From Candidatus Thorarchaeota archaeon (GTDB taxonomy: Archaea; Asgardarchaeota; Thorarchaeia; Thorarchaeales; Thorarchaeaceae): 14,941 bases of DNA. The notes under the pieces are model-generated. The model saw only the letters and a program-made list of their open reading frames with translations. It searched no databases and was not told where the DNA came from. The position numbers and the translations under genes were made by a program. This document shows positions 1 through 14,941 of the stretch, piece by piece. Numbering within the stretch: position 1 is the first letter of the stretch; every line of letters begins with the position of its first letter. Location: NCBI GenBank assembly GCA_016840965.1, contig JAEORI010000356.1, positions 1 to 14,941 on the forward strand. The letters run 5' to 3'.

Positions 1-3000
1 AGACTGACATTTAGAGTGAATGCTATCACTGATACACAGTATGGAATAAACGCAATAAACACACCTTCTGGACCTTCAATAATCTGGGATGCTTTATCTA
101 TTTCAATTACAGTCGCAGATAACAGAATAAACATAGGAAATATGGCGTCTGTTAACCCAGAGGCCACATATCTCTATGATGGAGCAACATATGATGGCAC
201 TCTTATTCTAAACGATACTGTATTCATTTACGCTGTTGCACAGCAGCACTGGTACACAGTAGATTCAGCACTTGGAGATGACGGTTACGGAATTACTGCA
301 ATCGAAATCAATGATGAGGTATACTGCATCTGGGACAGCCTTACAATCCTGATAACAGGTCCTTCAGATCAACGAATCAATGTGAATACTAATGCCTCTG
401 GGATTGTTGTGAGTGCTACTTATGACTTTGATAATACTCCCTATGATGGCTCCCTTATTCTGAACAATACGGTCTTCATGTATGATTTTGCTAAGAAAGA
501 AGGATATAGAGTGCTATACGCGTCAGGCGATGATTCCTATGGAATAACTGCCATAAAACAAAATGCAGAAACTTATTGCATATGGGACTCCCTCACAATT
601 ACCATGACAGACCCACTTGACCAGAGAATAAACATAGGTGAGAATGCTAGCGGGATTGTAGTAAGTGCCACCTATGATTATGATGGAATGCCATATGATG
701 GAATGTTGGTCTTGAATAACACTCAGTTCGTCTATGCATCCGTGGGCAAACGAGGATATGAGGTTTTGACAGCTAGCGGAGATGATATTCATGGCATTAC
801 ATCAATATCAACTCCTGACTATACGTTTTGTATCTGGGACCAGCTCAGAATTAGTATCACAGTGGATAGCGCCTCACTATATAATGGGCAACAAGCAAAC
901 TTCACACTCACTGTCAGTTATGATTACGACTCGATGCTCTGTACGACCTATGAAGTGATTATGTCCCGAAACTCTACGGTGTGGCTTGCGTTCACCAATT
1001 CTAATAAGACCCTATTTAATGACATCAATTCAAACCTAGTCTATTACTATAATGCTAGTCTAATCAGCTATGAAACTCTCTACGGAATAACCGCCTTCTT
1101 TACAACAACTCAAAAGGTTACTTGGTCAGAAGCGCCCAATCAAGTCCCTTCAAATGATACAGAGTTTCTATCTATGCTTAGTAATCCTGATGATTCTGAC
1201 AACATGTACGCGATGTACAGATTCTATGTTTTAACCACTAATGTAAGCGATGGAAATGGCTATGATCAAATCGAGTATGTGGAGGTAACATTATATGATA
1301 ACTTCAGAAGTCAGGTTGTTTGGACTATTAGATACACTGTAGCAACTGATACATTCTCAATCCAACAAGGTCCAGAATCAATTATTCTTGCTTCATGGTC
1401 CTCAGCTGTAGGAATTGGTAATCGACTTGAAATCAAATGGGTTATCAAGATCAATTGGAACCACCTAGATCTTACAGACGTTGACATCAGACAATTCGTA
1501 ACAGATGGGATTGATACAGACGAAGATTTCTATGAAGTAAACTGGGATGTAGAAACACGTTTAGAAATAATCAACCTAACTATTTCTGATGGACTTGGGA
1601 CGAATAATAGAGGAGATCTCGATGGAAGTATTTCAGTAAGTGGCACACTGATTTATCTCGGGTCTGGGAACAATAATCCATTGTCAAATGAAACTGATAT
1701 TTGGGTGATTAGCTCCGGATATGGATTGAATGTAGGTCCTTGGAGTGATCTAACATTAGTTACCGGACAATTCAGCTTGATAGTCTTCGCAGATAATGAA
1801 GTTGGCCAGGATACATTAACAATCAAGGCTGTTGAAGAAGGAGCCGGTAATGGTGGCCAAGATCTTCTCTCAGTACCGAGCCAGAACAGCTATATCGCGG
1901 ACAGAATCTTGGTGCAATCTTATTCCCCTGATGACTCCAGAGTCAATATTAATGATAATGTGAACCTGGACTTAACACTCAGATATGCGTATGACTCTAG
2001 TCCGGTCTTAGATGGAACAGTAACAGTCAACTCTGTTGCGGCCAGTCATATTGGTAGTGGAGTCTGGCGCATCACTGTTTCCAGGTCTTCAGTGCAAGAG
2101 GTCTTCTATAACACCGTTGTTTACAATGGTGGTACGCATGGTCTCACGCAAGTTGACCAGAATAGTCAGTCTCAGAATATTATCTGGGATAGTCTAACAA
2201 TTACTATATCTAATCCAACTGACAACAGAATCAACATCTTTGAGAATGCATCGGGAATTGTTATTTCTGCAACATATGACTTCGACAACGTTGCTTACGA
2301 TGGTACGCTTGTCCTGAACAACACTCTCTTCAGTTATGATTTTGCACAGAAACAGGGATACAAGGTGTTATTTGCATCTGGAGATGATTCTTACGGAATC
2401 ACAGTAATATCACAAAATGGTGAAACATTCTGTATTTGGGATTCTCTTACTATCTCAATAACCGACCCATCTGATCAAAGAATCAACATTGGTACTAATG
2501 CATCGGGTATTGTTGTATCAGCAGTATATGATTATGACAACACACCATTCGATGGTGTGTTAACTCTAAACAATACACAGTTTGAATCTGGAGTGACTCA
2601 GAGGATAGCTTATGGACTCCAGAGTGTTTCAGGAGGAACATATGAGATAACTGCAATTTCTGTGGATGATGAAACCTTCTGCATTTGGGATGCTATCATA
2701 ATTTCAATGACTAACCCAACTGATCAGAGAATCAATGTAAATCAGAATGCATCAGGTATTGTCATCAGCGCATGGTATGACTATGATGATTTGCCATATG
2801 ATGGAACACTGAATTTGAATGATACCTCCTTCGTATCAGCATTTGCTACCAAGAAAGGTTACACTGTTCTTAACGCGCTCGGGGACGATACCCACGGAAT
2901 CACATACATTCTGACAAACTCTGAAACTTGGTGCATATGGGATCAAATCATTGTTCTATCATATCAGGCAAGTGATGCACGCGATAACGTTGGTGACTAT

Positions 3001-5886
3001 ATCTGGGTTATCGTCAATTTGCAGTATGCATATGATAACAAACCACTCACCGATGGTACAGTGACTATCAATGGATTCGTCTTTCAACATCTTGGTTCCG
3101 GATTTTGGAGACACAATAGGACAGAACTGTCCGTCATAGATATCACATTTGATACAGTTTCGTGCACTGGTAATTTCTATGGAATACAAGCGGTGAATCA
3201 AAACTCCAAGTCCCAACAGATCATTTGGGACATGATTTCAGTAACAATCTCAGTCACTGATAGGCGTATTGATGTTGGAACTACTGCATCGATTGTTGTA
3301 AGTGCGACCTATGATTATGATGGCGAGTCATATGATGGGATTCTGACACTTAATGACACTACAGTCATGCATAACGATGTTGGTCGTTGGAATTACACGG
3401 TAGCGTCAGCATTTGGCGACTCTTATGGAATAACATTGATTGGATCTAATGATGAAGATTATGTGATATGGGACAGGCTACTAATATTATCATACTATAT
3501 CGACATGGATGATGATCGAATCAATGTTGGTGCAATACAACATGTGTATGTCGAAATTGTATACGAGTATGATTCGGTTATGTTCCAAGGGATTTACGGT
3601 TTTGTCTATATGAATGGGTCTGCGATGACTTGGGATCCAGGAAACCAATATTGGTATCGAAGCTATTCCTATAGTAATCCTGTTGGCCATACATTCCAAG
3701 TATCAGCGATTACAGATCTGATTCATGGATTGACTGAAATACGCGAGCTAGTTAGTCCTAAATTCATTATCTGGGATAAATTGAGCATCATGATTGAATC
3801 CAATGTTACAATGGCACATTTTGGTGATTCAGTCAGCTTTACAATCACTGCAACGCGTCAATATGATAACAGTAGAGTAAGCATATTATCTGTTGAAACC
3901 TTAAGAAATGGTACGTTCCTTTTCATGAATAATTTCACTGATACATGGAATGGACCTGGAGATGTTCACCAGCAATATCTCGTCATTGATGCTACAGATG
4001 GCACATATGGCATTACGGAATTTGATACTCAAATGATTGAGGTATTCTGGACAGATGCTCCGATAGTAAAAGTCGATCTTGCATTTACCAGCGACGATGG
4101 ATATGTCAACGGACGTGTTGACATTGGGACCGTGATTTCAATCTATTTCCATTGTGTATGGTTGGAGAATTCAAGTGATGTTGAATCTGGATTTCTCTAT
4201 GTGAATTCTGCGCCGTATACAATTAATGAAACAGGATGGGTAGTCATCACTGATTCAAGTTCAGATGTTGTTCTCCGATCGTGGGTGGTAACGGGAGTAG
4301 ATGCATATGGAGTCATCCTTTTTGAAGCACCTGCAGAGAACCCGTCAATGATATGGGATGCTATAGCAATACGAGATATGTGGGCTGATGATAGTAGAAT
4401 CAATCTATTTGATGAAGCTGAACTTCATGTTGATGCTCGATATATGTATGATAATGACAAATATAGTGGCATTTTAGAATTCAATAATACAATCTTAAAC
4501 TACTCTACTGTTGGTCGAAGAGGATATTCAGTGTTATCAGCTTTTGGAGATACTTATGGAATATCAGTTATTCTTCTAAATAATGAAACGAGTGTGATTT
4601 GGGATGCGCTTATTATTACTCTATCAGCGGATCGCAACAGAATTAATGTTGGCAGTTCAGTTTTTATCCAACCATCTGCGGTCTATGCTTACGATGGAGC
4701 TAAATTCAATGGAACACTTCCACTGAATTACATTGACTATGTTCAATTTTCTGTAGGAATGCGCGCATATACTGTTCTTGAAGAATTCATTACAGTAGGA
4801 GTTTACGGTATCAAATATGTCATTAGTAATGATGTGGAAATAGTAATTTGGGATGAGTTTGAGGTCTACTGGAGTGATAGAGACCTAAGGCGATACGATC
4901 TAGGCGCTTCAGTGCAAGTAAAATTCAAGGTAAGATATTCTTACGATCAAGTACCTTATACTGATACCAATGGTAGATTATGGATAAATGGGATTGAAGC
5001 CACCTATGATTTGGTCAATCAATCTTGGTTTATCTCAGTATCCTACAATGAACCTGGTTCGTTTGATTACCAAGTTGATGTGATAGTAGATCAAACAACA
5101 GCTGTCAATGCTCTAGATGCAGACGATGATTTCATTGTAACTGTAATATTTGATAGTGTCTATGTCTGGAAAGCCGGAGTTAGCAATTCAGAGAGAGAAG
5201 TAAATGCCCCAGCTACTTTCAATGCTACAGTAGGGAGTAGCGTCATTGTATATTTCCACCTACGTTATGCCTCAGATGAAACAGATATCGATGATCCATA
5301 CACCATAGTCTTCATTGATAGTGTTCAAGCGTCATTTAATACTGAAACCCAGCGATGGGAAGCGTCATTTGAGGGGTTAAGTGTTGGCACTGTGGTTTAT
5401 GAAATTGATATGTTTCTGGACCAATATGGACTGACCCATGTAGACCATAAAACCAAGATACCTAGTGTGTATTGGTATATTCCTCCACTACCGAATGAGG
5501 TTCTATATCTTGGTTTTGCTGGATTGGCTGGCATTGCTGTTGTTTTATTTGTCGCAAGAACAAGAAAACGAGTCACAAAACTTGAACATGCACTAACACC
5601 TGAAGAGTTGCTCTCCCTTGAAGAAGTGGGTATTTCTGCAGCGATGAGAGAACAGATGGTAACACAGCTCGAGTGGCTACGAGACGTGTCAGATGAGATT
5701 CAATTTACAGGAACAGATGTCCTCCGGGTGTTGAATGAAGAATTGATTAAAGCTAAACAGATGTACACTCGAGCATTTGAACTAGAATCTCCAACTGAGC
5801 CAGCAGGTCAACGCCTAAAAGAGATGCTTCTTGAACGCATTGACTCTGTTCTGGAAGCAATTGATAAAGAATTGGAACGTCGTTAA
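1..5886 (+). CDS. Giant repetitive cell-surface protein, C-terminal membrane anchor (5' partial)
   Basis: The frame is open from base 1. The first in-frame start-like codon is GTG at 16, but bases 1-90 already encode the end of a repeat unit, so the true start and signal peptide lie upstream. Counting from that GTG (1956 residues), about 17 repeats of 81-105 residues fill residues 26-1820, interrupted at about 372-630 by an unrelated insert. Typical units run D-x-RIN, NASGIV, a YDYD..PYDG turn, LNNT, GDD-x-YGIT and end in IWD. This reads as Ig-like beta-sandwich modules, a fold inference with no database match available. A hydrophobic helix at about 1829-1847 is followed by RTRKR, then a charged helical tail of about 109 residues, so the repeats should face outside and the tail the cytoplasm. 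Many N-x-S/T sequons suggest glycosylation. Likely role: surface layer, adhesion or cell-cell contact; the specific function is not known. Confidence 0.9.
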   Translation, partial: RLTFRVNAITDTQYGINAINTPSGPSIIWDALSISITVADNRINIGNMASVNPEATYLYDGATYDGTLILNDTVFIYAVAQQHWYTVDSALGDDGYGITAIEINDEVYCIWDSLTILITGPSDQRINVNTNASGIVVSATYDFDNTPYDGSLILNNTVFMYDFAKKEGYRVLYASGDDSYGITAIKQNAETYCIWDSLTITMTDPLDQRINIGENASGIVVSATYDYDGMPYDGMLVLNNTQFVYASVGKRGYEVLTASGDDIHGITSISTPDYTFCIWDQLRISITVDSASLYNGQQANFTLTVSYDYDSMLCTTYEVIMSRNSTVWLAFTNSNKTLFNDINSNLVYYYNASLISYETLYGITAFFTTTQKVTWSEAPNQVPSNDTEFLSMLSNPDDSDNMYAMYRFYVLTTNVSDGNGYDQIEYVEVTLYDNFRSQVVWTIRYTVATDTFSIQQGPESIILASWSSAVGIGNRLEIKWVIKINWNHLDLTDVDIRQFVTDGIDTDEDFYEVNWDVETRLEIINLTISDGLGTNNRGDLDGSISVSGTLIYLGSGNNNPLSNETDIWVISSGYGLNVGPWSDLTLVTGQFSLIVFADNEVGQDTLTIKAVEEGAGNGGQDLLSVPSQNSYIADRILVQSYSPDDSRVNINDNVNLDLTLRYAYDSSPVLDGTVTVNSVAASHIGSGVWRITVSRSSVQEVFYNTVVYNGGTHGLTQVDQNSQSQNIIWDSLTITISNPTDNRINIFENASGIVISATYDFDNVAYDGTLVLNNTLFSYDFAQKQGYKVLFASGDDSYGITVISQNGETFCIWDSLTISITDPSDQRINIGTNASGIVVSAVYDYDNTPFDGVLTLNNTQFESGVTQRIAYGLQSVSGGTYEITAISVDDETFCIWDAIIISMTNPTDQRINVNQNASGIVISAWYDYDDLPYDGTLNLNDTSFVSAFATKKGYTVLNALGDDTHGITYILTNSETWCIWDQIIVLSYQASDARDNVGDYIWVIVNLQYAYDNKPLTDGTVTINGFVFQHLGSGFWRHNRTELSVIDITFDTVSCTGNFYGIQAVNQNSKSQQIIWDMISVTISVTDRRIDVGTTASIVVSATYDYDGESYDGILTLNDTTVMHNDVGRWNYTVASAFGDSYGITLIGSNDEDYVIWDRLLILSYYIDMDDDRINVGAIQHVYVEIVYEYDSVMFQGIYGFVYMNGSAMTWDPGNQYWYRSYSYSNPVGHTFQVSAITDLIHGLTEIRELVSPKFIIWDKLSIMIESNVTMAHFGDSVSFTITATRQYDNSRVSILSVETLRNGTFLFMNNFTDTWNGPGDVHQQYLVIDATDGTYGITEFDTQMIEVFWTDAPIVKVDLAFTSDDGYVNGRVDIGTVISIYFHCVWLENSSDVESGFLYVNSAPYTINETGWVVITDSSSDVVLRSWVVTGVDAYGVILFEAPAENPSMIWDAIAIRDMWADDSRINLFDEAELHVDARYMYDNDKYSGILEFNNTILNYSTVGRRGYSVLSAFGDTYGISVILLNNETSVIWDALIITLSADRNRINVGSSVFIQPSAVYAYDGAKFNGTLPLNYIDYVQFSVGMRAYTVLEEFITVGVYGIKYVISNDVEIVIWDEFEVYWSDRDLRRYDLGASVQVKFKVRYSYDQVPYTDTNGRLWINGIEATYDLVNQSWFISVSYNEPGSFDYQVDVIVDQTTAVNALDADDDFIVTVIFDSVYVWKAGVSNSEREVNAPATFNATVGSSVIVYFHLRYASDETDIDDPYTIVFIDSVQASFNTETQRWEASFEGLSVGTVVYEIDMFLDQYGLTHVDHKTKIPSVYWYIPPLPNEVLYLGFAGLAGIAVVLFVARTRKRVTKLEHALTPEELLSLEEVGISAAMREQMVTQLEWLRDVSDEIQFTGTDVLRVLNEELIKAKQMYTRAFELESPTEPAGQRLKEMLLERIDSVLEAIDKELERR
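91..5475 (+). repeat. Tandem protein-coding repeats ending in Ile-Trp-Asp
   Basis: Fourteen exact IWD codon triplets start at 82, 328, 580, 832, 2182, 2434, 2683, 2935, 3223, 3466, 3769, 4351, 4597 and 4846. Adjacent ones are mostly 243-252 bases apart (81-84 residues), with longer units of 288-303 bases. Two units end instead in a W-x-x-AP form near 1120 and 4045, and the last two units (to about 5475) are degenerate. Short units carry YDYD..PYDG and LNNT. Long units carry YAYD and DGTVT with a GSG-x-W turn. The blocks at 337-840 and 2191-2691 are the most alike and look like a more recent internal duplication. Confidence 0.9.
1129..1905 (+). other. Non-repeat insert domain within the surface protein
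   Basis: This coding segment of about 260 residues has none of the IWD, RIN or YDYD signatures. It begins after the VTWSEAP end of a repeat and runs to the next repeat start at DDSRVNIN. It has alternating hydrophobic beta-like stretches (for example VVWTIRYTV and LEIKWVIKINWNH) and an acidic centre rich in Asp. It may be a ligand-binding, glycan-binding or processing domain inserted into the stalk. I do not recognise the family. Confidence 0.55.
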
Positions 5887-5888
5887 TT

Positions 5889-6935
5889 CTAGTCGCTTTT
5901 GGGTGCAGGTAACATCAGGTCTCGGAAAGTTTTGACGACTAAGAAATTAGCTTCTTGTTTAACTTCTTGATTGAGGACCTGTCCATGCCACTGTTCAGGT
6001 GGAACAATATCTACGAACCCTTTGAGAAAATTGCTGAGGGAAATTCTTGCTCTGAAATTCTCTTTCTCTGCAATCAATGCGCCCATATATTCTCCTTCAT
6101 GTTCCATGATGATTGTCTTTCCCTCATGAGATAAAGATCTAATCTGACCAGCATCTGGGAAAATCTCTAATCCAACAGATGTTACTGCAGACAATAACCC
6201 ATAAACCAAGAAATCAGCCATCTGCAATTCAGCATCAAAGTCATATGCGAATACAGGAAGTCCGTCCTTTGGCTTCATAACAACAAGTCGATAAAGTTTC
6301 ACTGGTACCAATATTGGCTTACGCGAGAGCTCCATTTCCATGAGTCTAGCAAATACTCCAGGTATTTCTTCCAAACTTTCTTCTAAATCCGTGTCTTCCG
6401 AATATTCAATATCATATTTGAGGCTAGGTTTCTCTAGCTTTTGAATCTCCACAATTTCGTGGTTAATCACCTTCACAACAGTGGCAAGTTTGTTGTCAAG
6501 AGCCAAAGCTTTTGCTCTCAATAGATCATGCTTTGCTCCGACCATATCTTTTGCTGTTCGTTTTAGGATTGCTCGGAGCAGTAATGATTCAACAATGCCC
6601 GGAGCAAGGTTTTGTTCCTCGGCAATTTGAGCGAGATTCTCGGAATAGTTTAGGGCAATTTTGTAGTCATTTTCCTCGCCATGAATCTGGTACCTTTTCA
6701 AATGAACCGATGCTAGCTGGACTTGTGACTTGATGACGTAATCAAACATATCGCCTTCAACAGCTAAATTGAGAGCCTCTTCAAGCAGTTTGATTGCTTC
6801 ATCCAGATTCATCCTCTGGTGTTGAAGAACTCCCCTTGTATAATTCATGATGACATTCCCTGCATCGAAGGCTTTTTCGCCTTCACTCTTATCGAATAGA
6901 GAACTGCGGGGTTCATCAGTCAAGAGCTCTTTCAC
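5889..6935 (-). CDS. TPR protein with longin/roadblock-like C-terminal domain
   Basis: The protein has 348 residues. Residues about 25-168 are helical with TPR-like pairs (AIKLLEEALNLA, IALNYSENLAQIA, AKHDLLRAKALALD), which suggests protein binding. An acidic linker (about 175-192) leads to residues 213-310. There two strands (LYRLVVMKP, PVFAYDF), a helix (DFLVYGLLSAVTSVGLEIF), three strands (IRSL, TIIMEHE, YMGALIAE) and a second helix (SLSNFLKGFVDI) follow the beta-beta-alpha-beta3-alpha order of longin/roadblock folds. Asgard archaea are known to carry many such domains, often linked to small GTPases and membranes, but that assignment here is inference. It is predicted cytoplasmic. The start is GTG at 6935 with GGAG touching it and a GGAAAGGAG about 20 bases upstream; an ATG at residue 30 is an alternative. 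Its stop lies 2 bases from the stop of the surface gene, convergently. Confidence 0.85.
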   Translation of the reverse strand: MKELLTDEPRSSLFDKSEGEKAFDAGNVIMNYTRGVLQHQRMNLDEAIKLLEEALNLAVEGDMFDYVIKSQVQLASVHLKRYQIHGEENDYKIALNYSENLAQIAEEQNLAPGIVESLLLRAILKRTAKDMVGAKHDLLRAKALALDNKLATVVKVINHEIVEIQKLEKPSLKYDIEYSEDTDLEESLEEIPGVFARLMEMELSRKPILVPVKLYRLVVMKPKDGLPVFAYDFDAELQMADFLVYGLLSAVTSVGLEIFPDAGQIRSLSHEGKTIIMEHEGEYMGALIAEKENFRARISLSNFLKGFVDIVPPEQWHGQVLNQEVKQEANFLVVKTFRDLMLPAPKSD

Positions 6936-7008
6936 TCCAATATAATTTTGAAACTCCTTTCCATATTTATTGGAAAAAGTATGTCAAAAAGTTATTCCAG
7001 ATTGATTT

Positions 7009-7034
7009 GTATATAGTGAATTTTTATATTTTCC
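7009..7034 (-). promoter_or_regulatory. TATA-like region upstream of the TPR-longin gene
   Basis: On the minus strand this stretch holds AAATATAAAAATT followed by TATATAC, about 75-100 bases before the GTG at 6935. It is the best archaeal TATA-like sequence in the 218-base gap between the permease and the TPR gene, and would let the TPR gene be transcribed separately. The rest of that gap shows no supported gene. Confidence 0.35.
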
Positions 7035-7153
7035 TTTTAACCATTCGATATCTGGATCTAGACCAACAAGATTGTTCAAAATTCGCTATTCCACATGAAT
7101 GATTCACGATGTTCTTGATAAGAATTCGATGAGTTTCTGCTAGACTTGTGAAC

Positions 7154-8215
7154 CTATCCATATTTAATGCGTGGATCAAGAAACCCATAGAGCAAGTCTG
7201 CAACAAAATTTGCTAGGATTGTGACTATAGCAATTATCATGAAGATTGCCTGCACAACGGGAAAGTCTTGTTTCATCAAGCTATCAAAGATAAATCGACC
7301 AAGACCACGCCATGAAAAGACAGTTTCTATCAGAACAGTTCCGGTGATAAGACTACTAAAGGTGAATGCGATAGCAGTAACCATTGGCAGCATTGCATTT
7401 TTCATGCCATGTTTGTATAGCACTTGGTTCTCATCCAATCCTTTTGCACGGGCTGTCAGAATGTAGTCCTCGGTTAGGACATTTACTAGATTATTCCTCA
7501 TGTAAAGAAACCAATATCCGTATGCTCCAATTGCTAAGGTCATCATTGGAAGAATAAGATGGTATAGAACATCACCCGCCACTATTAATGCTCCGAAAGG
7601 ACTTGTCCTGGCAGTTTCCCATACCTCATAGCTGATTGTACCAAACTGAGGGAAGCCAATAGCAACTCCAAACGTTGCTTCAGTCCATACGGGAAGCATA
7701 TATCCAAAGACCAAGAGTAGAACCATCCCTATCCAAAAAAATGGTAATGAGTATAGAAACAGTGATAGTGTAATTGCTCCAATGTCTTTCTTTGAACCCG
7801 GGTCAGCTGCCACCTTGACACCAGTCCAGATGCCCATAAGAATTGAAATCATAGAAGCAGTACCCATCAGCAATAATGTGTTGGGCAAACGTTCAACAAT
7901 TGAATCCATTACTGGCCTTTTTGTCAGAAATGAAATTCCAAAGTTCCCAGTGAACATACTGACAAGATAACGCCAGAACATATAGATCCAGTCAAATATG
8001 TCAGGATTCATTACTAGTCCAAAGTTAACATACATTTGTTCTAGGAGGTCTTGGGTCAAGTTACGACGAAGCTCATCAGTGAGCATAAGGCTAATCGGAT
8101 TGGCACCAAACAAAAAGGTTGGGAGCCGAAACAAGAAGAAGTTGAAGCAAACAACAGCTACTATTAGAAGAAACATGTACGCACATCTTCGTATCACATA
8201 TTCGCGCAGACCCAT
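7154..8215 (-). CDS. ABC transporter permease, DppB/OppB peptide-nickel type
   Basis: This is an integral membrane subunit of a type I ABC importer for peptides, nickel or similar solutes, forming the channel with a DppC-type partner. It has 353 residues, a little above the usual 306-340. Membrane segments are visible at about 11-30, 113-135, 147-173, 213-239, 280-299 and 318-342. Family signatures are FGISF (92-96) and ERLPNTLLL (108-116). The EAA loop has DYILTARAKGL (250-260) and MKNAMLP, which contacts the ATPase. ETVFSWRGLGRF (297-308) and the family C-terminus LYGFLDPRIKYG are also present. ATG at 8215 has a GGGGAG ribosome site 7 bases upstream. No DppC, ATPase or binding-protein gene lies on either side in this window, so it is an orphan here. 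The substrate cannot be told from sequence. Confidence 0.93.
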   Translation of the reverse strand: MGLREYVIRRCAYMFLLIVAVVCFNFFLFRLPTFLFGANPISLMLTDELRRNLTQDLLEQMYVNFGLVMNPDIFDWIYMFWRYLVSMFTGNFGISFLTKRPVMDSIVERLPNTLLLMGTASMISILMGIWTGVKVAADPGSKKDIGAITLSLFLYSLPFFWIGMVLLLVFGYMLPVWTEATFGVAIGFPQFGTISYEVWETARTSPFGALIVAGDVLYHLILPMMTLAIGAYGYWFLYMRNNLVNVLTEDYILTARAKGLDENQVLYKHGMKNAMLPMVTAIAFTFSSLITGTVLIETVFSWRGLGRFIFDSLMKQDFPVVQAIFMIIAIVTILANFVADLLYGFLDPRIKYG

Positions 8216-8222
8216 TAACGAG

Positions 8223-8228
8223 CTCCCC
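8223..8228 (-). promoter_or_regulatory. Ribosome binding site of the permease gene
   Basis: GGGGAG on the minus strand sits 7 bases before the ATG at 8215 and supports that start. Confidence 0.7.
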
Positions 8229-8270
8229 TACGAAACGCAATACCTAGTAACACTATGTACATTTATTCCT

Positions 8271-8281
8271 TAAAAATATAT
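8271..8281 (-). promoter_or_regulatory. TATA-like box of the permease gene
   Basis: ATATATTTTTA on the minus strand lies about 56-66 bases before the ATG at 8215. A start of transcription some 25 bases downstream would give a leader of about 30-35 bases holding the GGGGAG site. The remainder of the divergent gap (8282-8340) shows nothing I can name. Confidence 0.45.
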
Positions 8282-8343
8282 CAATTCATGGAGATGATAA
8301 TCGATTTGGTTCAATACTAGATGTAGGATTCATGCATGCCAAA

Positions 8344-8372
8344 AAACCGACGACCTTATCTAAAGCCTCTGT
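8344..8372 (+). promoter_or_regulatory. Conserved upstream element, copy 1 (STAND gene 1)
   Basis: This 29-base element is built as AAACCGAC, a three-base variable part, CTTATCT, then a variable part and TCTGT. It recurs before all three STAND genes with 24 of 29 positions invariant. Its CCGAC begins 60 bases before the GTG at 8407. CTTATCTAAA could act as a TATA-like box with the AAACCGAC part as a factor site. This copy lies in a divergent gap with no upstream gene on its strand, so it belongs to the gene that follows and is not a terminator of a preceding one. Confidence 0.7.
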
Positions 8373-8394
8373 CCATGTCAATTACAGCATGTAA

Positions 8395-8399
8395 GAGGT
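8395..8399 (+). promoter_or_regulatory. Ribosome binding site of STAND gene 1
   Basis: GAGGT lies 7 bases before GTG 8407. An in-frame TAA at 8392-8394 just before it rules out an earlier start, so the GTG is fixed. Confidence 0.65.
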
Positions 8400-8406
8400 C
8401 AGGAGT

Positions 8407-11400
8407 GTGTACGAGCGTTTTGAGCCATCTGAACGAATTTTTGTAGATCGTGAGGAGTATCTCGAATGGATGGATCGAGCTCTAGCACGATGTCAGAATA
8501 AAAGTGTTGTACTACATCTCAAAGGAATTGGTGGTATTGGTAAATCATCACTGCTTGACCATTGGGCAAACACAATTCAAACGACAATCCGAGTAGACTG
8601 CGAACAGCATTCTGAGTTCTATGATCGACTGAACATGATAGCTAAAGGGGTGACGCTCCAAGGTGTGAAACTACAACGCTTTGATGTTCTCTGGCAGATT
8701 AGACAGCGGTTCGTTGAAGGAGTTGAACCTGTTCAGGAAGCAGGTCGCCAATGGGCAAAGGAAGTGTTCATGGCAATTCCTTTCATTGGCACTTTAACCA
8801 TTATTGGCAGTGCGATTTCAGCTGTTGGTTCTCAGGTAACTCCGAAATTGAAGGGAAAGTTTAGTATAGTCGGAAAATGGTTGCAAGAAAGATTAGGAAA
8901 GAATCATGTTGAAAGACTTCTCGAGATTTTATGGAAAGAACCCCATCATGCAGAGTTCTTGTATCTCGATGCGTTGCTCGAAGATATCAATCTTAGAGGT
9001 AGTATTAATGTTCCACTTCTCTTTCTATTGGACAGCTTTGAATATGTTGACAATGAGAAAGCAAAGTGGAGGTATGGCGGCAGACAGATTACAGAAACTG
9101 AACTCTGGAGTGTCTTTCTCTGTTCGCTATCTAACTGCGTTGGAGTGATTGCTGGTAGACGAGCAGTAATCGCAGAAATGAAAGACCAAGTGGAAGAATC
9201 CGAGCTGCTTGAATTGGATGCAAAGAGTAGCAATGAGTTGCTTAGGTTAAGAAAAATATCTGATTCAAAGCTTCAAGAAAAGATAGTGAGTGTGAGTGGT
9301 GGAAATCCATTTGTGATTGGTGCTATCTGTGACTTAATTGATACAGGAAATACTTCGTTCGAAGACATTGAAGATCTCGGAGCAGACACCCTCGAGGAAG
9401 TCCGAATCAGAACTTGGCGTCGTCTATTCAATGAAGCACATGACTTGACACCTTTCATTGATCGCGCTGGAATTTTGCCATTCTTCAACAGACATGTAAT
9501 GAACATTATTGCACCAGACATGAAAGCTGAACAATGGGACAGATTGACTCGACTCAGCTTTGTCAGAAATATAGGAGATGAAACCTATGTTCTGCATGAT
9601 TTAGCTGAGGAGTTGGTCATTGCAGAACTCAGTGACCGACTTGAGGCACTGAGTGAAGAAGTCGCTGCTAGACTGGAAAAGACTTCAAAGGATAAATCCG
9701 ATTTAATTTTGTTAGGTCTAGCTATATCTTCTCTTGCAAGAACAAGTCCTCGAAATGCGATTGATAAAGTTGCTCTTGAGTTCCAAGTCCAAATCGCAAC
9801 AGGAGCAAGTGCGACTGTTGCAGATTTCCTTGAGATGCTGGAGGTACTTAGGATAGACACGAGTGAAGGAATGTTAGCAATTCAAGATTGGCGAGGATAT
9901 TGTCTATTTCAACTTGGTAGATTTGCTGAGTGTGAGCCTATGTTGCAGGAAGCTCTTTCCAACGCGCGAGAGCTTGCAAACTATCGACCTGATGATTACT
10001 TGCTTTATGTGGGTAGAATCTTGTATCACTTAGCACAGTTCTATATGAGACTAGGAAGATGGCGAGAAGCTGATGAGTCCTACAAAGAAAGTCTCTCTAC
10101 CTTTAATGACTTACTAGGAAAATCAGATCTACTAGACCCAAGACTGGAGCTACCACGAACTCTTGGGGCTTGGGGAGTTCGTCTGAATTATGGGATGTTT
10201 CTAATGAATACAAACCGACTAGTAGAAGCGGAGAAAATGTTGCAAGAATCGTTTGAATTTAGCAAGGAAATACCAGAGTCAGGTTTTTGGTGGAGTCGAC
10301 AATCTGCAACAAATCTAATTCTCTCTAGCTTGGCAGCTATAAGGATATCAATAGGAAAACCATTGGATGCAGAATTTATAACAAGGCAAATTGTCGAATC
10401 ACCTACTTTTCAACAATTGGATCCCGTATTCAGGGGAACGATTTTTGGACATCTGTGTCGTGCCCTTCGGAAAACCAATAGACCTTATGATGCAGAGGAG
10501 TATTTGCGTAAGTCTTTGGAGATAACAATGGTCCTATACCAAAAAGAACCAGCAGTAGAATGGGACATTATCGCTGAGAAATCTCTGACACTTGGAACAT
10601 TAATGATACAGACATGCAGATATGCAGACGCAGATGAAATGTTCAATAGAGCCCTCAAACTCACAAAGGAGTACGCTGTAGAAAAAGATCTCATTTTAGC
10701 CCTCACTCACGCACATTTAGGCTTCCTCAATACAGAATTGAATAGATTTTCACAAGCTGTAAATTCCCATGATACCTCTCTGAAGATATTCAGAAACTTA
10801 ACGGAAACATCTCCAGGACATTATGGTACCAATATTGCTGATTGTCTGAACAACTATGCATTGTTATTACAAAAAATAGGGAAATTTAAGAATGCAGCAG
10901 ACAGATACATAGAATCACTCCAAATATCTAGGGATCTGTGTAAAAACAATCCCGAAGATGTCGAAGTTCAAAACCGTGTCGGTTCGGTTCTCAACAATTA
11001 TGGTGTTCTTCTTGGAAAGATGGGCAAGTTGGAAGAAGCTGAGAAGTTACTGAATGAGGGTCTAGATATCCGGAAGAAGCTGGTCAAGGTTTCCCCAGAT
11101 ATGTTCGACAAACATCTCGCCTGGACTCTGAACAATCTTGGTATCGTGTTCCTCGACAAAAAAAATCTAACCAAGAGTATGAAGTATCTCAAGGATTCAC
11201 TCAAGCTACTAAGGAAATTGGTTGAAAAGACGGAAGTGATGTTTCTCCCAAGCTTAGCAGCTGTTCTTACCAATCTAAGCATGGTTTACAAGCAATCTGG
11301 AAACAACGAAGAAGCTGAGAAAATTGCAAGTGAAGTAGCTAAAATCAAGGATGAATTGGTGAGTAAAGATCCTCGAGTCTTCAAAGACAGATTCACAATT

Positions 11401-11442
11401 GAAACCCCAGAAGAGATTGAGGAAGTACTTCTTGACTTCTAG
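8407..11442 (+). CDS. STAND NTPase (NB-ARC-like) with C-terminal TPR array, copy 1
   Basis: The protein has 1011 residues and is a predicted cytoplasmic ATP-driven switch of the STAND class, which includes NLR-type immune receptors and MalT-type regulators. Visible in order: Walker A GIGGIGKSS (40-48); a glycine-rich hydrophobic stretch at 120-141; Walker B LLFLLD (204-209); a sensor-like GVIAGR (246-251); GNPFVI (299-304), equivalent to the NB-ARC GLPL motif; a winged-helix region with VLHDLAEEL, whose LHD (396-398) matches the MHD motif. From about 445 to the end come TPRs, the last with 46-48 residue period starting at 814, 862, 908 and 954 (LNNYALL, LNNYGVL, LNNLGIV, LTNLSMV). No effector domain precedes the P-loop. 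The ligand and output are unknown; defence, signalling or transcription control are all possible. It heads a tandem array with its own upstream element. Confidence 0.9.
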   Translation: MYERFEPSERIFVDREEYLEWMDRALARCQNKSVVLHLKGIGGIGKSSLLDHWANTIQTTIRVDCEQHSEFYDRLNMIAKGVTLQGVKLQRFDVLWQIRQRFVEGVEPVQEAGRQWAKEVFMAIPFIGTLTIIGSAISAVGSQVTPKLKGKFSIVGKWLQERLGKNHVERLLEILWKEPHHAEFLYLDALLEDINLRGSINVPLLFLLDSFEYVDNEKAKWRYGGRQITETELWSVFLCSLSNCVGVIAGRRAVIAEMKDQVEESELLELDAKSSNELLRLRKISDSKLQEKIVSVSGGNPFVIGAICDLIDTGNTSFEDIEDLGADTLEEVRIRTWRRLFNEAHDLTPFIDRAGILPFFNRHVMNIIAPDMKAEQWDRLTRLSFVRNIGDETYVLHDLAEELVIAELSDRLEALSEEVAARLEKTSKDKSDLILLGLAISSLARTSPRNAIDKVALEFQVQIATGASATVADFLEMLEVLRIDTSEGMLAIQDWRGYCLFQLGRFAECEPMLQEALSNARELANYRPDDYLLYVGRILYHLAQFYMRLGRWREADESYKESLSTFNDLLGKSDLLDPRLELPRTLGAWGVRLNYGMFLMNTNRLVEAEKMLQESFEFSKEIPESGFWWSRQSATNLILSSLAAIRISIGKPLDAEFITRQIVESPTFQQLDPVFRGTIFGHLCRALRKTNRPYDAEEYLRKSLEITMVLYQKEPAVEWDIIAEKSLTLGTLMIQTCRYADADEMFNRALKLTKEYAVEKDLILALTHAHLGFLNTELNRFSQAVNSHDTSLKIFRNLTETSPGHYGTNIADCLNNYALLLQKIGKFKNAADRYIESLQISRDLCKNNPEDVEVQNRVGSVLNNYGVLLGKMGKLEEAEKLLNEGLDIRKKLVKVSPDMFDKHLAWTLNNLGIVFLDKKNLTKSMKYLKDSLKLLRKLVEKTEVMFLPSLAAVLTNLSMVYKQSGNNEEAEKIASEVAKIKDELVSKDPRVFKDRFTIETPEEIEEVLLDF

Positions 11443-11448
11443 TGACAA

Positions 11449-11477
11449 AAACCGACTAGCTTATCTAAAACCTCTGT
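11449..11477 (+). promoter_or_regulatory. Conserved upstream element, copy 2 (STAND gene 2)
   Basis: This has the same 29-base layout as the element before gene 1, differing at four positions. It lies 6 bases after the stop of gene 1 and its CCGAC begins exactly 60 bases before the GTG at 11512. It implies that gene 2 has its own promoter or control site and is not simply read through from gene 1. Confidence 0.7.
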
Positions 11478-11499
11478 TTATGATGGTCATTGCGTGAGA

Positions 11500-11504
11500 G
11501 AGGT
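11500..11504 (+). promoter_or_regulatory. Ribosome binding site of STAND gene 2
   Basis: GAGGT lies 7 bases before GTG 11512, as in gene 1. The in-frame GTG at 11494 has no such site, which favours 11512. Confidence 0.6.
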
Positions 11505-11511
11505 CAGGAGT

Positions 11512-14500
11512 GTGTACAAGCACTACGAGACATCCGATGAGGTGTTCGTGGACAGAGAGGAACATATCGGATGGATGAACGATGCTCTTAAGAGATGCAA
11601 GCAGAAGAGTGTCGTTCTTCACCTCAAAGGGATAGGCGGAATTGGAAAGTCATCACTCCTTAATCACTGGGTTAACACACACGAGAAGACAATACGCCTC
11701 GATTGCGAGCAATACTCTGAGTTCTATCAGCGTCTGAACATGCTTGCTAAAGGAGTCGTCATACAGGGAGTGAAGCTACAGAGGTTCGACATACTCTGGC
11801 AGATACGTCAGCGATTTGTTGAGGGAGTTGAACCAGTAAGGGAGGAGGGACGAGAGTGGGCGAAAGAAGTTGTTATGTTGATCCCCTTCATTGGGACTCT
11901 TGCTAGTATTGGGAGTGCAATCGGTGCTGTTGGTTCGAAGGTCACTCCGAAGTTGAAAGGGAAATATAGCACAGTTGGAAAATGGCTTCAAGAGACCTTA
12001 GGCAAGAACCACATTGAGGAACTTCTTCAAATCCTTTGGAAAGACCCAAGACGTGCAGAGTTCCTGTATTTAGAAGCGTTTTTGGAAGACATCAACAACC
12101 GGGGTGATTCAAGCACTCCACTTCTCTTTTTGTTAGACCATTTCGAGTATGTGGATGATACAAAGGCTCAGTGGAAATATCAACGGCAGAAAATAAACGA
12201 AACTCAACTCTGGACTATCTTCCTCTCTAACCTCATCAATTGCGTTGGTGTACTAGCTAGTAGACGATCTGCTTCCGATGGTAAACTTATCGAAGTTGAA
12301 GAAAGCGAACTCACAGAACTGGATAGAGATAGCTGCTACGAGATGCTCGAACTCCAGAATGTCACAGACCAGAAACTGCAAGAGAAGATTGTGAGTGTCA
12401 GCGGCGGAAATCCGTTTGTGATTGATGCAATCTGTGACTTGATTAATGCTAGTGATGTTACAGTTTCAGACATAGAAGATCTACGGGGAGATACACTTGC
12501 TGAAGTAAGACTTCAGGTATGGAGACGGCTGTTCAGTCACACTGAAGGATTATTGGACATCATAAACAGAGCTGGATTGGTTCCATTCTTCACCAAAGAA
12601 ATCATCAAGATGATTACGCCAACATTCAACTTGGATTATTGGAATAGAATGATTCGATTGAGCTTTGTAAAAGACCAAGGTGATGGAAAATTCGTATTAC
12701 ACGACCTAGCTGAGGATCTTGTTAAAGCCGAACTTGGATCAAGACTGAAAGACTTAGCCAAAGAAGTTGCTAGATTTCTTATGGAGGGGTATGAAACTAC
12801 CAATGACTATACCCTGTTAGGTATGTCATATAATGCAGAAGCGTATGCCTCTTTAATGGAGGCATGTGAGAAAATCTTCTATAAATCAAATGACTTCAGT
12901 TGGAAGGCAGAGTTCAGGGAAGCTATTACTTTCCTTAATGTAATTTCTATTGACAACGATTTTGCTCGTGCAGTAGTGAATATATGTCGAGGCTGGCACC
13001 TCAATTTCTTAAATAGGGTAACTGAGGGAGAGCAAGCAGCCTGCTTAGCAATCGAATCATTCAGAACAATGGGAGGAATCTCCAATAATGAAAGGAATCG
13101 TTTTCTCGCATTATCTTTGGCATATTCAGGAGCATTAAAACGTAGACTGGGAAAAGAAAATGAAGCTGAGGAATTACTTGTAGAAGCAATCGGCCTATAT
13201 CAGAAGGTTGTGGAAGATCCACCAGACAAGATGACTCCTGGTAGAGAGTTATTGGAAGAAGCAGGAATTCTTTCTGGGTTGGGAGACTTGTTGTATTCAA
13301 GATGGGATTTTCAGAAAGCGCGGCAAAATTATCTTTCTGTTTTAGAAAAGCTCGAAAATTGGGCTAATATTGAGAAACAAATGTCAGAAGAGGAAATCAA
13401 GAGGGAAATAGCTCTTATTCTTTGGAATTTAGGCATGCTATCAAATTCAATGAACCAGCTCTCTGATGCAGAAGCTTTCAGTCGAAGAGGACTGGAACTT
13501 TCAAAGACACCGATATCTCAAATCCAACACCTCGACATTCTTGGAACATCCCTCATGTTGAGAGGGCGTTTGAAAGAAGCTAGACAAATGAAAGAGAAGG
13601 AAATTGAACTTTCTAAAAGAATGACCGAGTCCTCAATTGAATTCCCAAGATATCTAGGATCTTTAATGGGGTTACACCAGATTCAAAGTCTGAGTGGAGA
13701 GTATAATCAGGCAATTCAAACAGGTGAGCAACTTCTACTTTTGATAAAAGATTATGTGGAAAAAGCACCTGATGTCTACCTCCCCGATAGTGTTGCTTTT
13801 CTTCGAATGCATGGTAATATTCTAATGAAAACTGGCAATCTTAGCAAGGCAAAACAAGCATTTCATAATTGTATTGAACTTGCAGAAGAATATATACAAC
13901 GAACAAGTCCATTGAATAAGTGGGTAAAGCTAAAACCATTAAACGACTATGGTGTTCTTCTCTATTACATTGGTGACATGACGGATGCAGAAGTGTATTT
14001 GAGAGAAGCAATTGAGATTTCTAGGTGGTCTTTGAATGAATTACCTGTATCAACAATTCGCACTCGCCAGCTAAGTACATGTCTATTAAACATTGGAGCA
14101 TTAATGCTTGAAAGTGGAAAAGAAGAGGAAGCTGAAAAGGTTTTGAAAGAATCCCTTGGTCTACGAGAGAAGGTTCATGATGAAGCTCCTGAAGTTTTCT
14201 ATTACCACAATTATATAGCATCATCAATGAACAACTTGGGAGTATTATTCTCTAAAATTGGGAAAGACAATGATACGGAAGGATATCTCAACAAAGCATT
14301 GCAAATCAGAATTAAGAACCGTACAGAGGAAACATCAGAGATCTTTGATTCAGGAATTGTAACAGTCCTAAGCAACATTGGTGTGCTAAAAGCTCAATCC
14401 GGACATATCAATGAATCAAAAGATGCATTCAAAAAAGCCATAGTAGCTGCAAGAGAGTTATGGAAGAGAAATCCAGAAACACATCGGCAGGCTCTGATTA

Positions 14501-14649
14501 AGACTCTCAGTAACATGTATGTCGTTGCATCAGAAGATGAAACAGACGGGGATTTTGTAAAAGAAACTCTGTCAGAACTTCGAGATTTGGGATACAAAGG
14601 AATTCCTGATCAACTGAAGTGGTTTGTAGAAACCACTGAGATGTTCTGA
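11512..14649 (+). CDS. STAND NTPase (NB-ARC-like) with C-terminal TPR array, copy 2
   Basis: The protein has 1045 residues from GTG 11512; an in-frame GTG at 11494 would add six. I prefer 11512 because gene 1 is forced to the same codon, the ribosome site fits, and the upstream element keeps its 60-base spacing. The NTPase half is collinear with gene 1 and keeps the same residue numbers: Walker A at 40-48, hydrophobic stretch at 120-141, Walker B LLFLLD at 204-209, GNPFVI at 299-304 and LHD at 396-398. About 65% of the first 400 residues are identical and there is no indel. The TPR half is much less alike and longer, with late repeats of 47-48 residues (LLNIGAL, MNNLGVL, LSNIGVL). It is expected to respond to a different partner or ligand through the same switch. 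It has no N-terminal effector. Confidence 0.9.
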   Translation: MYKHYETSDEVFVDREEHIGWMNDALKRCKQKSVVLHLKGIGGIGKSSLLNHWVNTHEKTIRLDCEQYSEFYQRLNMLAKGVVIQGVKLQRFDILWQIRQRFVEGVEPVREEGREWAKEVVMLIPFIGTLASIGSAIGAVGSKVTPKLKGKYSTVGKWLQETLGKNHIEELLQILWKDPRRAEFLYLEAFLEDINNRGDSSTPLLFLLDHFEYVDDTKAQWKYQRQKINETQLWTIFLSNLINCVGVLASRRSASDGKLIEVEESELTELDRDSCYEMLELQNVTDQKLQEKIVSVSGGNPFVIDAICDLINASDVTVSDIEDLRGDTLAEVRLQVWRRLFSHTEGLLDIINRAGLVPFFTKEIIKMITPTFNLDYWNRMIRLSFVKDQGDGKFVLHDLAEDLVKAELGSRLKDLAKEVARFLMEGYETTNDYTLLGMSYNAEAYASLMEACEKIFYKSNDFSWKAEFREAITFLNVISIDNDFARAVVNICRGWHLNFLNRVTEGEQAACLAIESFRTMGGISNNERNRFLALSLAYSGALKRRLGKENEAEELLVEAIGLYQKVVEDPPDKMTPGRELLEEAGILSGLGDLLYSRWDFQKARQNYLSVLEKLENWANIEKQMSEEEIKREIALILWNLGMLSNSMNQLSDAEAFSRRGLELSKTPISQIQHLDILGTSLMLRGRLKEARQMKEKEIELSKRMTESSIEFPRYLGSLMGLHQIQSLSGEYNQAIQTGEQLLLLIKDYVEKAPDVYLPDSVAFLRMHGNILMKTGNLSKAKQAFHNCIELAEEYIQRTSPLNKWVKLKPLNDYGVLLYYIGDMTDAEVYLREAIEISRWSLNELPVSTIRTRQLSTCLLNIGALMLESGKEEEAEKVLKESLGLREKVHDEAPEVFYYHNYIASSMNNLGVLFSKIGKDNDTEGYLNKALQIRIKNRTEETSEIFDSGIVTVLSNIGVLKAQSGHINESKDAFKKAIVAARELWKRNPETHRQALIKTLSNMYVVASEDETDGDFVKETLSELRDLGYKGIPDQLKWFVETTEMF

Positions 14650-14654
14650 GATTG

Positions 14655-14683
14655 AAACCGACGAGCTTATCTCAAACTTCTGT
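14655..14683 (+). promoter_or_regulatory. Conserved upstream element, copy 3 (STAND gene 3)
   Basis: This is the third occurrence of the 29-base element, with AAACCGAC, CTTATCT and TCTGT all intact. It starts 6 bases after the stop of gene 2, and its CCGAC begins 61 bases before the GTG at 14719. The sequence between the element and the ribosome site has diverged from the other two copies, so the element itself appears to be under selection. Confidence 0.7.
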
Positions 14684-14706
14684 TTTTGATATTTATCACA
14701 AATTGT

Positions 14707-14710
14707 GAGG
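14707..14710 (+). promoter_or_regulatory. Ribosome binding site of STAND gene 3
   Basis: GAGG lies 8 bases before GTG 14719, matching the position of GAGGT in copies 1 and 2. Confidence 0.5.
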
Positions 14711-14718
14711 CATGTAGT

Positions 14719-14941
14719 GTGTACAAGCACTACGAAAAATCGGATGACATATTCGTGGACAGGGAAGAACACATCGAGTGGATGAATACCGCTCTTGAGA
14801 GATGCAAGCAGAAGAGTGTCGTTCTTCACCTCAAAGGAATAGGTGGGATTGGAAAGTCATCTCTCCTGAATCACTGGGTCAACACGCACGAGAAGACAAT
14901 ACGCCTCGATTGCGAGCAATACTCAGAGTTCTATCAACGTC
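14719..14941 (+). CDS. STAND NTPase, copy 3 (3' partial, cut by window end)
   Basis: An open frame runs from GTG 14719 to the window edge, 74 codons plus one base. The product begins MYKHYEKSDDIFVDREEHIEW and holds the intact Walker A GIGGIGKSS at residues 40-48, then the HEKTIRLDCEQYSEFYQR stretch seen in copy 2. By hand count 198 of 223 bases match copy 2 (about 89%), including an identical block of about 40 bases, so copies 2 and 3 split more recently than copy 1. A TTG at 14686 is an in-frame alternative start but lacks the ribosome site. From the other two copies I expect a protein of about 1000 residues ending in TPRs; that part is outside the window. Confidence 0.88.
   Translation, partial: MYKHYEKSDDIFVDREEHIEWMNTALERCKQKSVVLHLKGIGGIGKSSLLNHWVNTHEKTIRLDCEQYSEFYQR

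Follow-up and report, generated by a model that had tools for sequence, protein, structure and literature searches.

Among the signal transduction ATPases with numerous domains (STAND), MalT activates transcription in bacteria and has its DNA-binding domain at the C-terminus, and the Avs and bacterial NACHT antiviral proteins carry attached effectors. Resting STAND proteins hold ADP between the nucleotide-binding and helical domains (NBD-HD) and the winged-helix domain (WHD), and the ATP form multimerises (PMC6468293; here and below, papers are cited from the passages of them available to us). The sensor bears an inducer-binding site in several cases, an effector domain at one end of the protein is general but not universal, and PH0952 is a putative archaeal transcription regulator (PMC6468293). 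AP-ATPase/tetratricopeptide repeat (TPR) proteins are placed in bacterial systems by a paper on conflict systems (PMC7159879). Here we describe a STAND-TPR gene family found in a 14,941-nt stretch of DNA from Candidatus Thorarchaeota archaeon (GCA_016840965.1, JAEORI010000356.1, positions 1-14,941; called the window), in which two complete genes, A and B, and the 5′ part of a third, C, lie head to tail on the + strand. Members of this family have exchanged their switch and sensor halves, and most of them are preceded by a promoter-like element of their own.

The gaps from stop codon to GTG between A and B and between B and C are 69 and 69 nt, as an earlier note on this DNA had reported for its three head-to-tail paralogues, and the array is confirmed. 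Start-to-start spacing is 3105 and 3207 nt, and the upstream elements are spaced at 3105 and 3206 nt. For gene B, an in-frame GTG at 11494 lies upstream of the GTG at 11512 and is a second start candidate. The upstream stretches of A, B and C align among all three. Each gap was also said to carry the same element, ribosome site and GTG start; element and GTG are indeed repeated, but AGGAG adjoining the GTG is absent from gene C, and the purine tract common to the three genes is GAGG, 12 nt 5′ of the GTG. At Rfam gathering thresholds the gaps matched no RNA element, and the window contained no tRNA. Over its 74 codons gene C is 92% identical to gene B in amino acid sequence, and the two are 88% identical across a 235-nt stretch around the starts. 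Gene C runs off the right edge and further copies may follow; the longest contig listed for A and B in the protein search likewise has 14,941 nt. A and B share 41% identity over the whole protein; the value is 64% for the N-terminal ~425 residues and 26% for the remainder. A variable sensor half is supported. Saturation of the synonymous sites between A and B, in the switch and the sensor half alike (pS, the proportion of synonymous differences, 0.80 and 0.79), shows that the A-B duplication is old. Recent expansion or gene conversion in the window array was rejected for A and B on the same grounds, and the description of the family as "expanding" was not borne out. The window is free of N runs, A and B share at most 14 nt exactly and B and partial C 40 nt, and there is no hint of misassembly.

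The structure of the switch core was predicted from an alignment of 86 rows. Residues ~12-443 were predicted to form a STAND switch core (NBD-HD-WHD; pLDDT 87), followed by the TPRs. The best fold matches were MalT, the archaeal STAND-TPR protein PH0952, plant NB-ARC and Apaf-1, and the predicted fold aligns through the WHD of MalT, PH0952 and Apaf-1; listed fold matches alone do not exclude other folds. Avs3 was also present in the Foldseek list (8dgc, E 1.3e-4). In gene A, Walker A occupies residues 40-47, the Walker B strand 204-209, GGNP 298-301 and LHD 396-398. The Walker A pattern G.GGIGK[ST] was found in 122 of 123 proteins, and D209 of the Walker B strand is invariant. GGNP, corresponding to the GxP motif whose role in the STAND helical domain is described in PMC6468293, was present in 119 of the 123, and the phosphate-contacting His motif of the WHD, [LM]H[DE]LA, in 105. 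Predicted fold and motifs together bear out the STAND identity first suggested from the letters of the window. The segment that separates strand 2 from Walker B is long and includes a hydrophobic stretch, VFMAIPFIGTLTIIGSAIS, which is strongly conserved across the family. The C-terminal repeat sensor matched TPR_12/TPR_10, and the TPR half of gene B was modelled with high confidence. In several members the TPRs are followed by an acidic tail (W-S-E-E-E-E pattern), which gene A lacks.

We compared the two halves among 133 full-length rows, some of which are duplicates of one protein (123 are non-redundant, and 119 remain without N-run rows). For pairs with a switch identity of at least 80%, sensor identity was below 35% in 98 pairs, at 35-40% in none, and 40% or more in 454; without duplicates and N-run rows (420 pairs), the same split was 78, 0 and 342. 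P0010 and P0011 are 91% identical in the switch and 29% in the sensor, and the values for P0011 and P0074 are 62% and 64%. Clustering of the 123 proteins yielded 16 sensor types, 12 of them with at least two members, and the nearest switch relative carries another sensor type in 22 of the 123 (21 of 119 without N-run rows). Placing the 12 types on the switch tree required 29 changes (31 without N-run rows), where 11 would be needed absent exchange; 200 shuffles of the types gave means of 78 and 77, with minima of 73 and 71. One-clade tests rejected a single clade for T4 (p 4e-79), T2 (2e-61), T10 (9e-7) and T8 (0.0098), the last three on 60 rows; since the groups were defined from the same data, these p values are indicative. 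Among ten exchanged pairs, picked for low sensor identity, the change point fell within residues 408-428 in six, at 441 in one and within 342-384 in three, so that the whole range (342-441) belongs to the WHD or its end. The two halves of these proteins recombine repeatedly, and either may be the replaced one.

Could the mosaics have arisen by assembly, with switch and sensor halves of different paralogues wrongly joined, so that the family would consist of ordinary old paralogues? Many rows do come from metagenome assemblies, most of the proteins (the entries with P numbers) are known as protein sequence, and joins of 100 N occur inside family genes in two chromosome-sized records. However, eight paralogue pairs from the window and the loci L003 and L001 share at most 23 nt exactly (40 nt for B and partial C), which is too short to join reads, the breaks fall mostly at residues 408-441, outside the most conserved stretches, and removal of the four N-run rows hardly alters the count of discordant nearest relatives. 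We consider this explanation, which is already disfavoured, highly improbable.

The second feature of the family is the upstream element, whose consensus ACCGACNNGCTTATNTNA is found near -62 (~60 nt 5′ of the start) in most arrayed and lone copies. In the chromosome-labelled records CP070658 (bin8) and CP070761 (bin27), all 11 sites with at most one mismatch lie directly before family genes (seven in bin8, four in bin27), and a reversed-pattern control gave 2 sites; three of the 14 family places in these records were missed, two of which have sites with two mismatches, while L109 has none. A scan of 47 genomes, with sites assigned to family genes by coordinate comparison with profile matches, returned 34 sites. 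All 13 exact sites precede family genes, as do 11 of the 21 one-mismatch sites; the other 10 are within chance, because the reversed control gives 27 in total. Among the upstreams of core-family genes, 35 of 41 have a site (at most two mismatches) at -55 to -64, compared with 0.06% of shuffled upstreams, and the element is thus far beyond chance. In the divergent relatives L057, L120, L135 and L137-L140 there are 4-6 mismatches to it. No clear motif emerged as a general promoter consensus from 92 control upstreams, in which ACCGAC occurred in 0 and GCTTAT in 1.

A second block, GCGTG, follows 41 nt past the element start in 21 of the 35 upstreams (18 exact, 3 with one mismatch), and there the distance from block to start codon is 18-21 nt. 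It is found at 39, 40 or 42 nt in 5 of the 35, has its best match elsewhere in 5, including gene C, and is absent in 4, all of them in G115 and G116. In L131-L133, from these two genomes of another Asgard lineage, the element is kept as ACCGGCGGGCTTATGAGG or ACCGACGCGCTTATTGGG without the GCGTG block. The element-to-block distance is fixed and that from block to start codon variable, which leads us to read the element, itself private to the family, as a promoter-like signal. An archaeal TATA box lies ~25-28 nt upstream of the transcript start (PMC8553660); CTTATNT may correspond to such a box, with ACCGAC as a special upstream element or B recognition element, and the one-mismatch GCATG before gene A would mark the transcription start region. 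The "fixed cassette format" claimed in the earlier note is right as to a repeated element, but this element, which lone copies carry too, resembles a promoter more than an array-specific cassette; gene A itself has it although no family gene precedes gene A. Alternatively, the element might be a site of recombination or insertion by which gene cassettes are moved, for it stands at the 5′ edge of most copies, and these are dispersed among mostly unrelated neighbours. Inspection by eye of the sequences past the stop codons revealed nothing in common save the element of the next gene, the spacing of element, block and start is that of a promoter, and lone copies and another lineage retain the element, so that we regard an insertion site as very unlikely.

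When residues 1-430 of gene B served as protein query and the best 7994 candidates were scored, at least 244 proteins matched at E<=0.001, and the organism names among the 120 matches listed were Thorarchaeota, Sifarchaeia or Promethearchaeota. Two short peptide patterns, run over genome contigs, identified 18 loci, all in Thorarchaeota records; the names of matches and loci bear out the Asgard origin. The full-length profile matched 27 of the 47 genomes of bin8's order, many by TPRs only (at most 17 best candidates per genome). Core-type switch domains, with rows judged by eye, were present in 12 of the 47 (G001, G002, G009, G013, G018, G019, G025, G026, G027, G029, G031 and G033), G007, G021, G024 and G043 had divergent switch domains alone, and G036 had a 33-residue fragment. 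Phylum-wide, 59 of 227 genomes gave profile matches (at most 3 best candidates per genome), and beyond bin8's order switch-domain rows were seen in G115, G116, G117 and, weakly, G218, the remaining rows being TPR matches. Two further protein searches yielded TPR-dominated matches and 2 proteins, respectively, and no useful distant switch relatives; because both scored ~8000 candidates, restriction to Asgard archaea is not established. Judged by its sequence matches, the family is centred on Thorarchaeota.

Eight places that include the start of the switch domain were found in bin8 and six in bin27. Head-to-tail pairs or triples occur in the window and in L001, L003, L005, L006, L011 and L131, and the recurrence of arrays in other assemblies upholds the view of a multi-copy family. 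Ten of the 12 gaps between adjoining copies in these seven arrays are 65-90 nt; the outliers, both of which separate copy 1 from copy 2, are 1303 nt in L001, where a permease occupies the gap, and 1886 nt in L131. CP070658 and CP070761 contain 100-N joins, several of them within family genes (loci L006, L011, L016, L002, L007, L008, L009 and L013); these joins account for the truncated or headless members inspected there, and truncated copies are consequently not evidence for pseudogenes; the window, L001, L003, L005 and L131 are without N. We had considered headless bin8 copies as silent sensor cassettes, and withdrew this idea as the three examined coincide with 100-N joins. In L114 (G018:C66), a frameshift between switch residues 154 and 166, due to mutation or sequencing error, divides the family gene at 11497-14581 into overlapping frames of 186 and 876 aa.

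The neighbours of the array were also compared (Table 1). In the window and L003 (MP5_2600), the array stands beside the same surface-repeat protein, 348-aa TPR-like protein and permease, and in L001 (AB_25) beside the permease; in L003 the TPR-like protein is conserved at 94% and the adjoining permease at 77%. The position of the permease in L001 indicates that it and copy 1 have changed places. In the 1961-aa repeat protein, repeats of ~84 aa (spaced at 252 nt) are accompanied by a hydrophobic segment close to the C-terminus and by a charged tail; it is likely a surface protein. In L003 the array comprises three copies, beyond which lie three non-family genes on the opposite strand. The slot-1 genes of the window, L003 and L001 are orthologues: gene A is 94% identical to its L003 counterpart in the switch and 91% in the sensor, and 84% and 62% identical to that of L001. 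Slot 2 varies, with sensor type T8 in window B and L001 copy 2 and T4 in L003 copy 2; between window B and L003 copy 2, identity falls from 82-83% in the switch to 22-23% in the sensor. Flanks at the other compared loci showed only scattered mutual matches (23-44% identity). A single-copy family, syntenic with housekeeping genes across all relatives, had been named as an outcome that would undo the idea of a diversifying system. The idea withstands this check by half: there are many copies, but the slot-1 gene is a stable orthologue beside the same permease in all three loci.

Table 1. Coordinates of the features of the window
Feature	Position	Strand	Remarks
Large repeat protein, 1961 aa	1-5886		5′ end outside window; 85-86% identical neighbour in L003
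TPR-like neighbour, 348 aa	5889-6935		94% identical in L003
OppB-type permease (BPD_transp_1)	7154..8215	-	77-78% identical to array permeases of L003, L001
Gene A promoter-like element ACCGACGACCTTATCTAA	8346..8363	+	one mismatch to ACCGACNNGCTTATNTNA
GCATG before gene A	8387..8391	+	one-mismatch GCGTG variant, 41 nt past element start
Gene A, STAND-TPR protein	8407..11442	+	1011 aa; TPR type T5
Gene A switch core, residues 12-443	8440..9735	+	predicted NBD-HD-WHD core and arm helices; model, fold matches, motifs
Gene A hydrophobic stretch, residues 120-138	8764..8820	+	peak hydropathy 1.91
Gene A TPR sensor half	9736..11439	+	T5
Gene B promoter-like element	11451..11468	+	exact match
GCGTG block before gene B	11492..11496	+	41 nt past element start
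Gene B, STAND-TPR protein	11512..14649	+	1045 aa from GTG 11512; TPR type T8
Gene B switch core, residues 12-443	11545..12840	+	residue range from alignment to gene A
Gene B TPR sensor half	12841..14646	+	T8
Gene C promoter-like element	14657..14674	+	exact match; GCGTG block unrecognisable at +41
Gene C, 5′ end alone	14719..14941	+	74 codons from GTG; leaves window

Taken together, we slightly favour an explanation in which one ATP-dependent switch, many TPR sensors and an own promoter serve an NLR-like surveillance role (NLR, nucleotide-binding leucine-rich repeat receptor). Three of its parts are much more certain than the whole, namely the predicted STAND-type NBD-HD-WHD fold, the repeated recombination of the halves and the private upstream signal. 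In this lineage-specific family, a constant ATP-dependent module would be paired with many interchangeable TPR sensors, most genes forming their own transcription unit behind the family-only promoter. By analogy with known STAND proteins, the switch would hold ADP at rest; the TPR half would bind an inducer, probably a protein or peptide, ADP would be swapped for ATP, and the ATP-bound protein would multimerise. As the switch is constant and the sensors are exchanged, one output may serve many inputs, and as no effector domain is attached, this output would be built in or supplied by a partner: it could reside in the constant module, the long NBD segment that bears the conserved hydrophobic stretch being one example, or else in a partner able to recognise the multimer. 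The most likely role would be intracellular surveillance by an NLR-like repertoire, with different recognitions and one shared response; an immune role is plausible, and an immune-like one is preferred because sensors are exchanged and presence is patchy. A more daring version, in which the hydrophobic NBD segment would act as a hidden membrane-active effector on multimerisation in an archaeal NLR-like repertoire with at least a dozen exchangeable sensors, its own promoter class and a dedicated transcription factor, seems to us unlikely.

Several observations weigh against the favoured explanation. No effector domain was found at either end of A or B, where only NTPase and TPR-type models scored above the cut-off. 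Six of the 41 core upstreams are without the element (L014, L109, L119, L131 copy 1, L134 and L136), and T5, the type of gene A, forms one clade on the switch tree, with no exchange. The slot-1 orthologues compared are under purifying selection (window A and L003, sensor: nonsynonymous divergence dN 0.04, pS 0.20). Variability at concave and convex TPR positions was 1.45 and 1.36 bits for T1, 1.43 and 1.46 for T2, 0.85 and 0.83 for T5, and 0.92 and 0.72 for T3; hypervariability of the groove was absent in three of these four types and weak in T3. With concave positions not clearly exceeding convex ones in variability, diversification shows no clear focus on the groove. By a coarse count of models, 63 PADLOC models were matched by 148 flank proteins from the bin8 and bin27 loci and 72 by 131 control proteins; this count gave no sign of a defence island and no excess of defence matches in the flanks, and it does not support the defence neighbourhood raised in the earlier note. 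Within the first 25 rows of each list, flank models included mads_2/3, type II methyltransferases and Cas12f/Cas12u-like models, and control models mads, DndA/SspA, methyltransferases, helicase and others. PADLOC on genes A and B gave generic TPR models only and no curated antiviral STAND model. Mobile or viral carriage was likewise rejected, as the family had no match in phages, plasmids, viral contigs or PHROGs. Neighbourhood, selection on orthologues and groove variability thus add no support to an immune-like role.

Some of the same observations would suit regulators of cell physiology resembling MalT or PH0952, in which each copy senses a metabolite or protein state and acts on a common target, the variety of sensors reflecting regulation. 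The closest folds are those of these two proteins, the latter with its putative regulatory role (PMC6468293), slot-1 orthologues are under purifying selection, and the commonest Pfam families of the flanks (top 25 of 210) are mainly metabolic, transport and small GTPase families, with two DNA methylases. On the other hand, no DNA-binding domain was found in A or B (Pfam and NCBIfam gave neither HTH nor ArsR matches), and patchy presence with many exchanged sensors is atypical of core regulators. We regard this alternative as possible but rather improbable, and retain surveillance as the preferred reading.

Of the known archaea, the Asgard group is the one most closely related to eukaryotes, and a family of this kind in it would bear on the origin of NLR-type innate immunity. 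If surveillance is the true role, a "one switch, many sensors" strategy would exist in Thorarchaeota beyond the catalogued defence systems, and methods based on defence islands would overlook such a family. With the private element as a handle, further members could be sought in genomes and the factor reading the element traced. From its sequence features, the family is a promising candidate for a recognition repertoire. We found no description of it in the portions of the open-licence PubMed Central literature available; Thorarchaeota with STAND and tetratricopeptide retrieved spliceosome work alone, and Thorarchaeia with tetratricopeptide retrieved nothing. A survey of Asgard defence (PMC11291487) has NLR among the Asgard systems, and the passages available mention neither Thorarchaeia nor tetratricopeptide or TPR; those of an archaeal survey (PMC12988326) mention tetratricopeptide once, with viperin, and neither Thorarchae nor NLR.

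How, then, does the family compare with known systems? MalT (PDB 8bob) is among the closest folds to its switch, but no DNA-binding domain like that of MalT was found in A or B. Compared with plant NLRs (NRC NB-ARC) and Apaf-1, no coiled-coil (CC), TIR or CARD domain was found, and TPRs replace the leucine-rich repeats (LRR) or WD40 repeats. Avs and the bacterial NACHT antiviral STANDs have the same STAND switch and a C-terminal repeat sensor; attached effectors are theirs, whereas none was found in A or B. STAND sensors of multicellular bacteria that are diversified by diversity-generating retroelements (DGRs) also combine a constant STAND core with a diversified sensor, as described in the passages available of PMC10907252, whereas the Thorarchaeal family swaps the sensor as a whole module. 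The DGR reverse transcriptase family PF00078 had matches in none of 4 genomes, the window's own not among them, and in 3 of 14 control genomes. PH0952 of Pyrococcus horikoshii (PDB 6mfv), itself a STAND-TPR protein, is among the closest folds, and arrays, a private promoter and sensor exchange, which are features of the Thorarchaeal family, go unmentioned for it in the available passages of PMC6468293. The Thorarchaeal family thus appears to be a variant of known STAND-TPR proteins, in which the arrays, the private element and the exchange of sensors are new relative to what those passages report for PH0952.

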